Origin: Thermomonas sp.
GTDB lineage: Bacteria; Pseudomonadota; Gammaproteobacteria; Xanthomonadales; Xanthomonadaceae
Assembly (NCBI RefSeq): GCF_023953935.1
Contig: NZ_JAMLIW010000007.1
Coordinates: 62,001-126,000, forward strand
Direction of reading: 5' to 3'
Length of the DNA: 64,000 bases
Below the pieces are notes generated by a model that saw nothing but the letters and a program-made list of their open reading frames with translations, ran no database searches and was not told where the DNA came from. The translations under genes were made by a program, and so were the position numbers. Below are positions 28,168 to 33,656 of this stretch, piece after piece (positions within the stretch are counted from its first letter, which is position 1; each line of letters begins with the position of its first letter).

Positions 28168-29421
28168 ATGCTGCCCGCGCCCGTGCAAACCTACCTCGTC
28201 GGCGGCGCGGTCCGCGACGCGCTGCTGGGCCTGCCCCCCGGCGACCGCGATTTCGTGGTGGTAGGCGCAACCGCCCAACAGATGTTGGACGCCGGCTTCA
28301 AGCAGGTCGGCCGCGATTTCCCGGTGTTCCTGCATCCGCAGACCGGCGAGGAATACGCGCTGGCGCGCACCGAACGCAAATCCGGGCGCGGCTACACCGG
28401 CTTTGCCGTCCACGCCAACCCTTCGGTGACGCTGGAAGAAGACCTGCGTCGGCGCGATTTCACCATCAACGCGATCGCGCGGGCCGAAGACGGCACGCTG
28501 GTCGATCCGTTCGGCGGTGCGGGCGACATCGAGGCGCGGGTGCTGCGGCATGTCGGCGATGCGTTCGTCGAAGACCCGCTGCGGGTGCTGCGGGCGGCGC
28601 GCTTCATGGCTCGCTTGGCGCCGCTGGGCTTCACCGTGGCACCGGAAACAATCGCGCTGATGCGGCAGATGGCGGCCAGCGGCGAGCTCGACGCGCTGGT
28701 ACCTGAGCGGGTCTGGCAGGAATTGGGCAAGGCATTGCGCAGCGCAGCGCCCTCCGCCTTCCTGCAATGCCTGCGTGCTGCCGACGCCCTGCGCGTGGTG
28801 CTGCCGGAAGTCGATGCCCTGTACGGGGTCCCGCAGCGCGCCGATTACCACCCGGAGATCGATACCGGCACCCACGTCGAGATGGTCTGCGACATGGCTG
28901 CACGGCTGACGCCGGGTGACGAGCTGATCGGCTACGGCGCGCTCTGTCATGACCTCGGCAAGGCGCTCACGCCGGCGGCCGAACTGCCGCGCCACGTCAT
29001 GCACGAACAGCGCGGCGTCGCCGTCGCCAACGCCATGAGCGAGCGCCTGAAGGCGCCGAGCGAGCACCGCGAGCTGGCGGCATTGTGCAGCCGCGAGCAC
29101 CTGCTGGTGCACCGCATCGCCGAGCTGAAGCCGGCCACGATCCACGACCTGATCGCCCGCTGCGACGGCTTCCGCAAACCCATGCGAATCGATCAGCTCG
29201 CCACCGTCTGCGAGGCCGACGCGCGCGGCCGCACCGGGCATGCCGAAACGCCCTACCCCCAGGCCGCCACGCTGCGGCGGCTGTTCGCGGCAGCGCAATC
29301 GGTGCGCGGCGATGCGATCGCGGCCAGCGGCCTCAAGGGCCCGGACTTCGGCGCGGCATTGCGCAAGGCGCGGATCGCCGCCATCGCACAGGCAAGGTCA
29401 CAGCCGGCGATCGAACCTTAG
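28168..29421 (+). CDS. cca: Multifunctional CCA tRNA nucleotidyltransferase
   Basis: Adds or repairs the 3' CCA end of tRNAs. At 417 residues it matches the E. coli-type enzyme with an extra HD phosphohydrolase domain. The N-terminal catalytic site is [20 protein letters not shown], with the two metal-binding Asp residues in DRDFVVVG. The template region is [15 protein letters not shown] and the Arg-rich [14 protein letters not shown]. The HD domain has [19 protein letters not shown]. The last 24 bases overlap the convergent VanZ-like gene. Confidence 0.94.
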
Positions 29422-29808
29422 CAACAGGTCGCGCAGCGGCGTGAACGCCGTCGCCAGCCCGATCAACACCCCCACGGTATTGGCCAGTGCATCCATCCGG
29501 TCGGCGGCGCGGCCCATTCCCATCGCGCCTTGCAGGTATTCCAAGCCGATCCCGAGAAACACCAGCACCACGCACACGAACCCCCAGGACAGCCGCCGCT
29601 GGAACAATTGCACCGCGCCCGCCGACAGCACCGCGTACGCCAGGAAGTGTTCGAACTTGTCGCTGACCCCGACCTCGGGCAGATCCTGCACCGGCAGCAG
29701 CGAGCCGAACACCACCACGGCAATGGCCAGCATCCACAGCCCGGTCCATAGCCAGGGCCGCCGGAACGGCTTGAGCGAACGTCCGAACCGGGGCTTTGGC
29801 GCGTTCAC
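29398..29808 (-). CDS. VanZ-like membrane protein
   Basis: A 136-residue membrane protein with about four hydrophobic segments: [20 protein letters not shown], the segment after [39 protein letters not shown] and the segment around [13 protein letters not shown]. The DKFEHFLAY motif and the later ...[11 protein letters not shown] are characteristic of VanZ-like proteins, named after a teicoplanin-resistance factor. Most members have unknown roles in the envelope. The start is a GTG that overlaps the preceding gene's TGA (GTGA). It is the last gene of the folB operon, and its 3' end overlaps cca on the other strand. Confidence 0.8.
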
Positions 29809-30992
29809 AGCCGATGGCTCAAGTCGCCCAAGGCAAATGCGGGCTCGAACTCCACGCCGCGCTGGAAGCCCAGGCACTGGAAGCGCTCGCCCATCTCGCT
29901 GGGCAGGGTCAGTCGCTTGACCTGCTGGCGCAGGGCATGCCGCGCCGCGTCATTCGCGGCACCCGCCTCGGCGGGCGCCAAGCGTTGGGCCAGACCGTTG
30001 CCAAGCAGGAAGCTGGCCTGCGTGCAGTAGCCGGCGAATTCAAACCCGGCGCCGACGCCGGCCTCGGCCAGCGCGGTGAAATCCACCGAAGCGGTGATGT
30101 CCTGCAAGCCCGGCCAGGCAAACACGTCCGCCGTCATCCGGTGCTGCCTGTACGCGCGCAAGGTGCCGTCATCGCGTTCGGGCAGATAGTATTCCGAACG
30201 CGGGTGGCCGTAGTCGATGAACAACAGCGCGCCGCGCTGCAACCCGCCGACCACCGCCTGCACCCAATACGGAAGCTGGACCAGCACTTCGCTGCGGTAG
30301 CCGTCGGCGAACGGCGCGTCCAGCTGTCCTTCGATCCGACGCACCTCCGCGGCCAGCATCGCGTCCGCCGGCTGTTCGCTGCGCACGAAGCGACCCTCGC
30401 CATCCAGCGCCACACCCTCTTCCAGCACTTGCCCCTGGCGAATGACGAAACGCGAAGCCGGCAGGGCGTCGATCACCTCGTTGGCAAACACCACGCCTTG
30501 CCACGGTTCCTGGATCGGCCCGTCCAACCATTCCACCCGTGCGAACAGATCCGCATCCAGCGCGGCTTCCAGACGCGCGCGCTGGCGTGTGCGCAGGTCG
30601 GCGCTTGGTTCGAGGATCGCGTAGCGCGCCGGCAGCGCATCAAGATCGCGCAGCGCTTCCAGACAAGCGTGCGCAAACGCGCCGCTGCCGCCGCCCAGTT
30701 CGAAAAACACCGCATCGATGCCCAACTGCTTGAGCACCGGTGCCAGCGCATCGGTCACGGTTGCCGAAAACAACGGCGAGAGCTCCGGCGCGGTGACGAA
30801 GTCCCCGCCCGCCCCGAACTTGTGCGCGCCGGCGCTGTAGTAGCCCAGGCCCGGCGCGTACAGCGCCAGCTCCATGAACTTCCAGAACGGGATCGCGCCG
30901 CCGGCGGCGATGATCTGCTCCTGGATCAGCTGGCGCAGGCGCGCACTGTGCGCCTGTGCGTCGGCCTCCGGCTCCGGAATTCCTGGCATCAT
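29805..30992 (-). CDS. MidA-like SAM-dependent methyltransferase (COG1565)
   Basis: A 395-residue member of the COG1565/DUF185 family, whose eukaryotic member (MidA/NDUFAF7) methylates an arginine of respiratory complex I. The N-terminal signature is IPFWKFMELALYAPGLGYYS followed by FVTAPELSPLFS. The SAM-binding loop is VFFELGGGSGAFAHACLEAL, and VVFANEVIDALPASRFV is also conserved. The bacterial target is unknown. The first ATG overlaps the TAA of the upstream PTPS-like gene by one base (TAATG). Two ATGs are adjacent, so the start is uncertain by one codon. Confidence 0.85.
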   Translation of the reverse strand: MMPGIPEPEADAQAHSARLRQLIQEQIIAAGGAIPFWKFMELALYAPGLGYYSAGAHKFGAGGDFVTAPELSPLFSATVTDALAPVLKQLGIDAVFFELGGGSGAFAHACLEALRDLDALPARYAILEPSADLRTRQRARLEAALDADLFARVEWLDGPIQEPWQGVVFANEVIDALPASRFVIRQGQVLEEGVALDGEGRFVRSEQPADAMLAAEVRRIEGQLDAPFADGYRSEVLVQLPYWVQAVVGGLQRGALLFIDYGHPRSEYYLPERDDGTLRAYRQHRMTADVFAWPGLQDITASVDFTALAEAGVGAGFEFAGYCTQASFLLGNGLAQRLAPAEAGAANDAARHALRQQVKRLTLPSEMGERFQCLGFQRGVEFEPAFALGDLSHRL

Positions 30993-31483
30993 TAGTCGAA
31001 CCGCGCGCGGCGCCCCGCGCTCTGCCCGGGCGCGGAGGCTACCCGTACCTCGATTTCCTCGATCGCATGCGCGCGCAGCGCAGCGCGATCTTCGCCCAGC
31101 CGCGCAAGGAACCAGCCGGCGAACTCTTCCAGGGTCGCATTCTCGATCGGCAGCAGTTTCACGTCCTCGCGCAGGAACGGAATGCGCTGGCCGGCAAACA
31201 CCGCGATCACGTGATCGCCGTCCTCTTCGATCCGCAGGTGCGGCGATCGCGTCGGCAGGATCATCCACTCGTTCAACTCACGGCACAGCGCGACCACCCG
31301 ATCCTTGTAGATGCCGTAATCGAAGCAGAGGCCATTGAACTGCATGCGTGCGTGGAGGTCCACTTCGACGAAGAAATTGTGCCCGTGCAGGCGCTCGCGT
31401 TCGCTGGCCGAGAAAATCGTGAAATGGCCAGCAGAGAACTTCATGTTCTGCTTGGCAAGGCGAATGGTGACATTCTCGCTCAT
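30992..31483 (-). CDS. 6-pyruvoyltetrahydropterin synthase / QueD superfamily protein lacking the usual Cys
   Basis: A 163-residue T-fold enzyme of the PTPS/QueD group, which act on dihydroneopterin triphosphate. Zinc ligands are visible: the His in KFSAGHFTIF and the pair in LHGHNFFVEVD. In QueD and PTPS a catalytic Cys stands four residues before HGH (CxxxHGH). Here the segment is SASERERLHGH with no Cys but with two Glu, as in the PTPS-III-like enzymes that substitute Glu and can replace FolB chemistry. The protein also has an inserted loop after DYGIYK. It overlaps the SDR gene by ATGA and sits in a folB operon, so pteridine metabolism is likely; the exact reaction is unknown. Confidence 0.83.
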   Translation of the reverse strand: MSENVTIRLAKQNMKFSAGHFTIFSASERERLHGHNFFVEVDLHARMQFNGLCFDYGIYKDRVVALCRELNEWMILPTRSPHLRIEEDGDHVIAVFAGQRIPFLREDVKLLPIENATLEEFAGWFLARLGEDRAALRAHAIEEIEVRVASAPGQSAGRRARFD

Positions 31484-32184
31484 GCGAAATCCGCCGCACC
31501 GATATCACCCAGCTGCGGGCGCATGACGATCTCCTCGACCACCGTGCGCGGCGACAGCGACCACGCCGTCCACGCCATTTCCGCCACGTCCTCGGCGGGC
31601 ATGAAGCGCTCGGGCGGCAGCGCCACCCCGGCCCAGGAATCGGTATGGGTCGCGCCGGGGATCAGCGCCACCACGCGCACCCCGTGCGGCTTCATTTCCT
31701 CGCGCAGATTGCGGGTGAAGCCCAGCAGCGCGTGCTTGGCGATGCTGTAGGAGCCGCCGTTGGAATAGGCCGCGATCGAGGCGGTGCTGCACACGTTGAG
31801 CACCATCCCGCTTTGCTTCGCCAGCATCGCCGGCAGCAGCCGGCGGGTCAGCCGATAGGCGCCGAACAGGTTGGCCTGCAGCATCTCCTGCAGCACGCCA
31901 TCATCCTCCTCGGCAAGCGCCCCCGGCTGGAACGCACCGGCGTTGTTGACCAGCAGCTCGACGCCGCCGTGGCGCTCCAGCACCGCCTGCGCCAGCGCAT
32001 CCACCGCTGCATCATCGCGCATGTCGCAGGCGAAGCACTCGACCGCCGGCAGGTCTGCCTTGAGCGCATCCAGGCCCGCCTGCCCGCGCGCGCAGGCGAT
32101 CACCTGCTGCCCTTCGCGGACGAAACGCGCGACGATCGCCCGGCCGATCCCGCGCGACGCGCCGGTGACCAGCACCACGCTCAT
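31480..32184 (-). CDS. Short-chain dehydrogenase/reductase
   Basis: A 234-residue SDR. The cofactor loop is VLVTGASRGIGRAIVARF. NNAG is in ELLVNNAGAFQPG, the catalytic Ser in VLNVCSTASIAAYS, and the YxxxK in GGSYSIAKHALLGF. An Arg rather than an Asp near the end of the second strand (CARGQAG) suggests NADP preference. Standing between folB and a PTPS-like gene, with ATGA overlaps on both sides, it is a candidate pteridine reductase (sepiapterin- or FolM-like). That role is inference from context; the sequence itself is a general SDR. Confidence 0.85.
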   Translation of the reverse strand: MSVVLVTGASRGIGRAIVARFVREGQQVIACARGQAGLDALKADLPAVECFACDMRDDAAVDALAQAVLERHGGVELLVNNAGAFQPGALAEEDDGVLQEMLQANLFGAYRLTRRLLPAMLAKQSGMVLNVCSTASIAAYSNGGSYSIAKHALLGFTRNLREEMKPHGVRVVALIPGATHTDSWAGVALPPERFMPAEDVAEMAWTAWSLSPRTVVEEIVMRPQLGDIGAADFA

Positions 32185-32540
32185 TCCCCGAAACTCCCGC
32201 GCTCGATTTCCACGCCCACCGCTGTCGCGTTCGGCAGCGCTTCGGGCTTGCTCACTTTCAGGTGCACACCGTGGGCGCCGAATTCGTTGAGGATCAGCTC
32301 GGCGCAGGCCTCGGCCAGCGTCTCCACCAGCACGTATTCGGTCTGGGTGACGAAATCGGCCAGCCGCTGCGCCACCGCTTCGTAATCCAGGGCGTCGATC
32401 AGGGAATCACTGAGCGCGGCGACGCGGGTCTCGAAGCGGATCCGCACGTCCAGCACCAGCGTTTGCGGGGCGAGACGCTCACGCGCGTGCACCCCGATCA
32501 GGGCGGGGATGCGCAGGCCTTCGATGAAGAGGGTGTCCAC
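32181..32540 (-). CDS. folB: Dihydroneopterin aldolase
   Basis: Cleaves 7,8-dihydroneopterin in folate synthesis. It has 119 residues and the T-fold pattern: IEGLRIPALIGVHARERL with the substrate-binding Glu, DALDYEAVAQRL, ETLAEACAELIL, and the catalytic Lys in LKVSKPEALPNATAV. It starts with GTG at 32540. Upstream, the GTGATTC heptamer repeats touch the start codon directly, so there is no recognisable ribosome-binding site and the 5' leader consists of repeat sequence. It is first in the operon folB-SDR-PTPS-midA-vanZ. Confidence 0.92.
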   Translation of the reverse strand: MDTLFIEGLRIPALIGVHARERLAPQTLVLDVRIRFETRVAALSDSLIDALDYEAVAQRLADFVTQTEYVLVETLAEACAELILNEFGAHGVHLKVSKPEALPNATAVGVEIERGSFGE

Positions 32541-32641
32541 GTGATTCGTGATTCGTGATTCGTGATTCGTGAAGGCTACCTGCTCTTGAAGCTTTTACCA
32601 ATCACCAATCACCAATCACGAATCACGAATCCCCAATCCCG
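32541..32641. repeat. Inverted blocks of GTGATTC heptamers
   Basis: The left block (32541-32571) is four tandem copies of GTGATTC. After a spacer of about 25 bases, the right block (32597-32641) is built from CACCAAT and CACGAAT units, the inverse of the left block. Together they can form a long hairpin. The right block encodes the last residues and the stop of tsaD; the left block abuts the folB start codon. Such heptamer arrays are dispersed repeats in Xanthomonadales, as far as I recall. Confidence 0.85.
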
Positions 32642-33656
32642 GCAACAACGCCATGTCCCAGCGCGGGGTCGCCCGGATCGCGGCACCGTCGCGCTGGCCG
32701 GCGGCCAACCGCAGCGCGCCGGCGAAGGCGATCATCGCGCCGTTGTCGGTGCACAGCGCGGGGCGCGGGAAGCAGGCGCGGCCGCCGCGTTGTTCGCACA
32801 TCTGTGTCAAGCGCGCCCGCAGCCGCTTGTTCGCACCGACCCCACCGGCCACGATCAGCACGTCGCAACCGGCTGCATCCAGCGCGCGCTGGCACTTGAT
32901 CGCCAGGGTATCGACCACTGCATCCTCGAAGCCGCGGGCGATGTCGACGCGGGTCTGCTCGGATTGGTCGCTGTCGCGCCACGCCAGCAGCACCTGGGTC
33001 TTCAAGCCGCTGAAGGAAAAATCCAGCCCCGGCCGGTCGGTCATCGGGCGGGCGAACTTGAAGCGCCCCGGCGCGCCCTGTTCGGCCAGTCTGGCCAGCT
33101 GCGGCCCGCCCGGATAGGGCAGGCCCATCATCTTGGCGGTCTTGTCGAAAGCCTCGCCGGCGGCATCGTCCAGGGTTTCGCCCAGCAGCCGGTAGCGGCC
33201 GATCGCCTCCACACCGATCAGCTGGGTGTGGCCGCCGGAGACCAGCAGCGCCACGAACGGCGGTTCCGGCGCAGCGTCCTCCAGCAGCGGCGCCAGCAGG
33301 TGGCCCTCCATGTGGTGGACGGCCAGCGCCGGCACCTCCAGCGCCCACGCCAGCGAGCGGCCGACCGCCGCGCCCACCAGCAGCGCGCCGACCAGGCCGG
33401 GGCCGGCCGTGTAGGCCACGCCGTCGATGTCGGCCACGCCCAGCCCCGCCTCGCCCAGGGTCTGCCGGATCAGCGGCAGCAGCTTGCGCACGTGGTCACG
33501 GCTGGCCAGCTCCGGCACCACCCCGCCGTATTCCGCGTGCAGCGCGATCTGGCTGTAGACGGCGTGCGCGCGCAGGCCGGCCGCACCGCCCAAGGCGGTG
33601 TCGTAGACCGCCACTCCGGTCTCATCGCAGGAGGTTTCGATACCCAGGACTTTCAT
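32616..33656 (-). CDS. tsaD: tRNA N6-adenosine threonylcarbamoyltransferase TsaD
   Basis: Transfers the threonylcarbamoyl group to A37 of tRNAs reading ANN codons, together with TsaB and TsaE. It has 346 residues in the ASKHA fold. The N-terminal signature is [17 protein letters not shown], with the metal-binding His pair in [26 protein letters not shown] and [34 protein letters not shown] and the Asp in [13 protein letters not shown] complete the site. The last seven residues (GLGIRDS) and the stop codon are encoded by the heptamer repeat, so the tail is repeat-derived. It is divergent from rpsU. Confidence 0.96.

Follow-up and report, generated by a model that had tools for sequence, protein, structure and literature searches.

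The two genes that couple a short-chain dehydrogenase/reductase (SDR) to a protein of the 6-pyruvoyltetrahydropterin synthase (PTPS) fold in Thermomonas sp. are a mobile, pairing unit that stands in the place held by FolM in relatives. They belong to a five-gene operon, folB-SDR-PTPS-MidA-VanZ, read within a window of 64,000 nt (NCBI RefSeq assembly GCF_023953935.1, contig NZ_JAMLIW010000007.1, positions 62,001 to 126,000) of a 2.59 Mb genome that is 99.98% complete. We give an even chance to the reading that SDR and PTPS would together make a reduced pterin, a vitamin-like enzyme helper, by an animal-like, tetrahydrobiopterin-type route of two enzymes, replacing the FolM (monapterin-type) route and probably feeding phenylalanine hydroxylase. 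An earlier, sequence-only reading of the window had proposed the five genes as one unit; their order is indeed conserved, but the unit that moves and pairs is the SDR and PTPS, not all five.

PTPS was present in 18 genomes of a 25-genome sample of the genus (our own and 24 others). The order folB-SDR-PTPS-MidA-VanZ was kept in all 18, with matches 60-93% identical in the other 17, and is therefore not due to chance; conservation of the order had been suggested as a check on the operon, and it held. The overlaps between genes vary: in five loci (L007, L008, L010, L012, L019), 14-29 bases separate the SDR match from the PTPS match. At E 1e-45, the SDR was found in the same 18 genomes as PTPS, in none of the other seven, and in none of 16 genomes sampled from the rest of the order. 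One of those 16 (G038) carries a more distant PTPS (43%), adjoined by an SDR of a second type and a Vut_1 gene. In a sample of the family, PTPS occurred in 11 of 247 genomes and 3 of 54 genera, and so looks like a local acquisition; this patchy spread suggests that the SDR-PTPS module was acquired from outside.

What the module replaced is apparent from the seven genus-sample genomes that lack PTPS, six of them read as regions (L023-L028) and the seventh (G015) from coordinates. All six regions have the gene order tsaD, folB, folK2, antisense FolM, MidA; in L024, extra sequence separates folB and folK2, and the stretch ends inside MidA. VanZ follows MidA in L023 and L025-L027, and a VanZ fragment lies at the end of L028; cca comes next in L025-L027 and was not detected in L023 by tblastn. 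In G015, a partial FolK and a FolM have adjacent coordinates on one contig. A FolM ortholog (identity at least 74%) was found in all seven genomes without PTPS and in none of the 18 with it, where the best match was at most 44%; the FolM of L027 scored 352.7 bits, over the NCBIfam 'pteridine reductase' cut-off of 288. Within the genus sample, FolM and SDR-PTPS are mutually exclusive, and SDR and PTPS are strictly paired. FolK follows the same division, with two copies in each of the seven (one of those in G015 partial) and one in each of the 18, and FolK2 was accordingly considered as the replaced gene. It was rejected: two further Lysobacteraceae genomes carry FolK2 alongside SDR-PTPS, in the orders folK2-SDR-PTPS-another open reading frame (ORF)-MidA-VanZ-cca (L050) and folB-further ORF-SDR-PTPS-other genes-folK2-MidA (L042), and neither has a FolM match at 1e-35. 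Because these two keep FolK2 yet show no FolM, FolM is the gene exchanged and FolK2 was lost separately. Altogether, no FolM ortholog was found in any of the 20 Lysobacteraceae with SDR-PTPS that were examined. Passages of a 2007 paper report two FolK genes in Xylella, with folM-like genes clustering with pterin-branch genes, and predict FolM-like proteins to be pteridine reductases rather than folate enzymes (PMC1971073). Among the titles and abstract openings of open-licence papers that were searched, none reported an exchange of FolM for SDR and PTPS, and no open-licence paper combining 'Thermomonas' and 'pterin' was found.

The features of the locus in the window are the following:
32181..32540, minus strand: folB, dihydroneopterin aldolase, with a GTG start (PF02152 and TIGR00525).
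31480..32184, minus strand: SDR, read as a putative NADPH carbonyl reductase of the sepiapterin reductase type (2bd0 ranked first by fold and profile; W184).
30992..31483, minus strand: PTPS-fold enzyme of a divergent PTPS-III-like subfamily (PF01242; fold nearest Plasmodium PTPS; active-site differences).
29805..30992, minus strand: MidA-type SAM-dependent methyltransferase (Methyltransf_28, PF02636), 395 aa from the ATG of TAATG; an old neighbour.
29398..29808, minus strand: VanZ-like membrane protein (PF04892, under cut-off; same place in relatives); an old neighbour.
32616..33656, minus strand: ORF presumed to be tsaD, the upstream neighbour in both locus types, tracked by tblastn.
28168..29421, plus strand: ORF presumed to be a cca-type gene, convergent with the VanZ gene and overlapping it by 24 bases, tracked by tblastn.

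The sequence-only reading had offered the SDR as a possible pteridine reductase. It is not a ring reductase of the FolM/PTR1 type: pteridine reductases are described in part of one paper (PMC13259868) by the motif TGx3RxG, seen as TGAARRIG in the FolM of L027, whereas the window SDR has the ordinary TGx3GxG in the form TGASRGIG. Its nearest solved relative is instead a sepiapterin reductase. The first PDB fold match of the AlphaFold model (mean predicted local distance difference test, pLDDT, 89.8) was 2bd0_A, the enzyme of Chlorobium tepidum (E 7.1e-25, template modelling score, TM, 0.92; next match 4.9e-22). A profile of the 18 SDR orthologs likewise ranked 2bd0 first (159.4 bits; next 144.1), in an alignment over positions 3-230 of 234 that includes the C-terminal tail RTVVEEI..RP..GDI. 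W184, present in all 18 orthologs, aligns with Trp-196 of the C. tepidum enzyme; Trp-196 and Phe-99 both appear in the title of a 2008 paper on L-threo-tetrahydrobiopterin production, as given in the reference list of PMC7520308. The SDR is best read as a predicted sepiapterin-reductase-type NADPH carbonyl reductase.

The PTPS was compared with relatives located through the peptide patterns FxAxHFTIF and IRLAKxxM; since these patterns defined the search, conservation of the two stretches is partly by construction. The scan matched 301 genome stretches, and the wider counts given here use the best 80 of the 301, which come from Gammaproteobacteria, Myxococcota, Cyanobacteriota, Verrucomicrobiota, and Sericytochromatia. 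The window PTPS reads RERLHGHNF, with Glu before HGH. The sequence-only reading had singled out this Glu in place of Cys; it is real but not unusual, as ExxHGH is named as the PTPS-III signature in part of a published account (PMC5041015), and the window PTPS and all 80 relatives have ExxHGH without Cys. The enzyme is peculiar instead in lacking, as do all 80 relatives, a His and a Glu found in Plasmodium at two active-site positions. The fold of its model (pLDDT 96.5) is nearest to Plasmodium PTPS (3lze/1y13/3m0n/2a0s, TM 0.91), and Glu-37, the 'catalytic residue' in the titles of two Plasmodium PTPS entries, aligns with E30 of the window PTPS. All 80 relatives share the three zinc His, Arg29, and Glu30. 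At position 72, where Plasmodium and QueD have His, none of the relatives does (Glu 62, Arg 12, Ser 3, Gln 2, Gly 1); the preceding position 71 is Asp in 55 and Asn in 24, and Asn in the window PTPS. Position 150, the Glu of the Plasmodium SESPxQ segment, is never Glu in the profile alignment (Ser 62, Asn 15, others 3), a comparison that rests on Plasmodium because QueD misaligns in the last segment. From the PTPS literature, we take position 72 to be that of the catalytic His of an Asp-His dyad and position 150 that of the pterin-anchoring Glu. Most members of the subfamily can be written RExxHGH ... SGPGQ, with SAPGQ in the window PTPS.

Known classes do not accommodate this protein readily. 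The PTPS-II motif CxxxxxHGH is absent, with no Cys within 14 residues before HGH in the window PTPS or any of the 80 relatives, and the three members tested against NCBIfam (window, L088, L106) reached no cut-off. QueD was considered and rejected: the window PTPS scored 39.3 bits against a QueD cut-off of 89.25 and lacks CxxxHGH, and a separate QueD-like gene with KCARLHGH lies on contig C11 of the same genome. It is possible, though we think it rather less probable than its opposite, that the subfamily is a distinct uncharacterised enzyme class, making a tetrahydropterin by chemistry unlike the Cys-Asp-His mechanism and handing it to interchangeable reductases (sepiapterin-reductase-like, the second SDR type, or FolM), and that it has displaced the FolM route outright in Thermomonas.

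The proposed route would begin with GTP cyclohydrolase I, supplying dihydroneopterin triphosphate. The PTPS-fold enzyme would rearrange this into a tetrahydropterin whose side chain bears a carbonyl, as in the PTPS-II mechanism; oxidation of the side chain would then provide for reduction of the ring and make a ring reductase of the FolM type unnecessary. The SDR, with NADPH, would reduce the side-chain carbonyl or carbonyls as C. tepidum sepiapterin reductase does, as its profile, fold, and kept Trp suggest, giving an L-threo-tetrahydrobiopterin-like cofactor. The cofactor would presumably serve phenylalanine hydroxylase, and FolB would stay a folate aldolase. This route fits both the lack of FolM and the strict coupling of SDR with PTPS: a PTPS and a sepiapterin-reductase-type SDR form the heart of tetrahydrobiopterin synthesis and would yield a tetrahydropterin without a FolM-type ring reductase. 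A search for a pterin-dependent hydroxylase, another check that had been proposed, was successful: our own genome has a Biopterin_H gene (ORF L119:4685-5752). Biopterin_H is also present in all 18 PTPS-bearing genomes of the genus sample (in G005 partial, at a contig end) and in all five other searched genomes with the window SDR type (G041, G042, G043, G044, G047).

Several observations weigh against the tetrahydrobiopterin-type reading. Its weakest step is that assigned to PTPS, because the protein has the PTPS-III ExxHGH, associated with formation of 6-hydroxymethyldihydropterin, rather than the PTPS-II motif, and lacks the Plasmodium His and Glu. The hydroxylase is weak support in the genus because it is nearly universal there (24 of 25 genomes; the exception is G015, a genome of 80% completeness without PTPS). 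The counts for exclusion of FolM may stem from one or a few ancestral events and are not independent tests. Nor is the exclusion general: FolM-like matches occur in two of the three Sericytochromatia with the window SDR type (G042, 42%; G043, 39%) and, at 1e-35, in 27 of 50 wider genomes, a sample hand-picked from the 80 loci to thin close relatives and including many incomplete metagenome-assembled genomes (MAGs); other gammaproteobacteria have FolM in the vicinity of PTPS. As for the SDR, 2bd0 was absent from the ten chains given by a single-sequence PDB search at 1e-30; all 18 orthologs have Pro where the C. tepidum enzyme has Phe-99; and the second SDR type, the commonest partner of PTPS, does not have 2bd0 among its best 60. 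Because the motif and active site of the PTPS fit neither PTPS-II nor textbook PTPS-III, we hold the product between a biopterin-type and another tetrahydropterin.

The partners of PTPS in other genomes bear on this choice. An SDR lies within 2.6 kb in 70 of the 80 loci (second type 41, window type 17, FolM 12), and several of the ten loci without one end early at contig ends. Among 52 loci with full flanks, one of the three SDR types lies less than 2.8 kb from PTPS in 47 and at 2.8-5.6 kb in three, which counts for the tetrahydrobiopterin-type reading. On a tree of the PTPS relatives, from which 20 of the 80 loci were left out, the contexts are clustered, with six changes needed for the second SDR type, two for the window type, and four for MidA with FolM. 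Other gammaproteobacteria have the arrangement FolM-MidA-PTPS, and a Coxiellaceae MAG has FolB beside PTPS. That three SDR types, FolM among them, adjoin the same PTPS favours a different product, tetrahydro-6-hydroxymethylpterin or a related new tetrahydropterin, for which PTPS would cut the side chain and the SDR, FolM, or other SDR would reduce what results, with glycosylation in cyanobacteria as in cyanopterin. In two of three Trichodesmium loci (L079, L088) the gene after PTPS-SDR encodes a GT4-type glycosyltransferase, and Okeania (L096) has one at a distance of 3.3 kb; cyanopterin, according to parts of PMC3546692, is a 6-hydroxymethylpterin glycoside that is tetrahydro in vivo, which also counts for this product. 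However, the GT4 proteins matched general glycosyltransferase models alone and no pteridine glycosyltransferase, and the window SDR looks like an enzyme that reduces side-chain carbonyls and not the ring; we judge this explanation decidedly unlikely.

A plain PTPS-III acting as a folate bypass, converting dihydroneopterin triphosphate to 6-hydroxymethyldihydropterin beside FolB, with the SDR either FolM-like or an unrelated passenger, would account for the ExxHGH signature, the nearest fold, and the operon shared with folB. Eleven of the 50 sampled PTPS genomes have no FolB match, though many are incomplete MAGs. Replacement of FolB by PTPS was considered on this basis; FolB is present in the other 39, which counts against it, and in the window folB sits in the same operon with its motifs intact. 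The bypass also leaves the SDR pairing unexplained, and it was FolM (and FolK2), not FolB, that the genus lost; we consider it unlikely. That the PTPS-fold protein no longer acts on pterins, having another substrate or a non-catalytic role in a merely positional cluster, is improbable. The changed anchoring Glu and catalytic His positions in all 80 relatives and the positional coupling of MidA and VanZ would suit it; the invariant zinc His and PTPS-III Glu count against it, as does the finding that genes for SDRs, and at some loci for FolM, FolB, or QueD, are linked to it across several phyla.

The 50-genome sample and the wider loci yielded further observations. Biopterin_H was found in 28 of the 50 genomes, in five of them (G060, G065, G071, G074, G075) weakly and in two separate pieces of one frame of 408-605 aa, a pattern that an insertion in a divergent hydroxylase would give; in G075, the match of the second piece is very weak (E 4e-5). 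In four genomes without a FolB match (G048, G066, G082, G084), Biopterin_H covers profile positions 1-305 (in G084 in two pieces); these are candidates for PTPS standing in for FolB. PTPS, the second SDR type, and a Vut_1 (YhhQ-like) transporter are consecutive on one strand in L054, L066, L076, L077, L091, L094, L098, L099, L100, L101, L103-L108, and L113. In Pseudomonadales, the Vut_1 next to PTPS exceeds the cut-off of a queuosine-precursor transporter model; it may nevertheless carry a pterin instead of that precursor. In six Nannocystis loci (L058, L061, L064, L065, L067, L080), QueD lies directly upstream of PTPS and a second-type SDR downstream; the QueD of L058 reads KCSRLHGH.

Turning to the operon itself, all five genes lie on the minus strand, and the four overlapping junctions claimed for them (ATGA, ATGA, TAATG, and GTGA, in the order folB/SDR/PTPS/MidA/VanZ) are as the sequence reads. 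Pfam agreed with four of the original gene names, in bits with cut-offs in parentheses: FolB 101.5 (31.8), adh_short 173.2 (26.6), PTPS 44.8 (22.4), and Methyltransf_28 179 (23.3). The label 'VanZ-like' is weakly supported because the Pfam VanZ score, 27.0 bits, is under the 30.1 cut-off. FolB scored 78.2 bits against TIGR00525, over the 72.15 cut-off, and did not reach the bifunctional-aldolase model PRK11593 (87.3 bits, under 184). It is the sole FolB match in its genome and keeps the Tyr of DY, the Glu of VETLAE, and the Lys of SKP, which we take to have catalytic roles. In the FolB tree, 16 of 24 inner branches are open, and folB in PTPS-bearing genomes may be native or acquired. The original impression that the first three genes look like pterin genes is supported. 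The coupling of MidA and VanZ to them, which had seemed unexplained, is real and positional: both keep their position in the locus in relatives that have neither SDR nor PTPS and are old neighbours, and a single pathway of all five genes was rejected on that ground. The stretch at 32540-32638, between tsaD and folB, contains two mutually inverted heptamer arrays, CGTGATT x4.7 and ACCAATC/ACGAATC x6; as RNA, it has a predicted fold of -52.9 kcal/mol (z -8.3).

If the tetrahydrobiopterin-type reading is true, one bacterial genus exchanged its tetrahydropterin cofactor route in place, and the cofactor of bacterial phenylalanine hydroxylase would be exchangeable between monapterin and biopterin types. 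The 18 genus-sample genomes with the module and the seven without it form a clean natural comparison, by which the bacterial choice of pterin cofactor can be tested directly. The PTPS subfamily is widespread, falls below NCBIfam cut-offs in the three members tested, and has an active site that should not work by the textbook mechanism.

Among known systems, the FolM/tetrahydromonapterin route of E. coli and Pseudomonas is represented by the relatives' FolM, which takes up this position in the locus and is a probable source of a tetrahydropterin; it differs in that FolM is a TGx3RxG ring reductase, with no ortholog found in the 20 SDR-PTPS Lysobacteraceae examined. PTPS-IV, as described in parts of PMC5445326, has the signature FGPAQ. 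It shares a GPxQ-type motif, read here at the place of the Glu-bearing SESPxQ of Plasmodium, whereas the window subfamily has mostly SGPGQ, and PF00925 and PF01872, rather than SDR or FolM, are given as the neighbours of PTPS-IV. PTPS-III, known from Plasmodium and the bacterial FolB bypass, has the same ExxHGH and a similar long fold (TM 0.91); here the Plasmodium His and Glu are absent at two positions, FolB is kept alongside, and an SDR is the partner. From the tetrahydrobiopterin pathway of C. tepidum and cyanobacteria, the Thermomonas pair differs in that its PTPS has ExxHGH in place of the PTPS-II motif and an altered active site, its SDR has Pro for Phe-99, and both genes sit in a folB operon; that pathway likewise pairs a PTPS-fold enzyme with an SDR, and the C. 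tepidum enzyme is the closest solved relative of the SDR.

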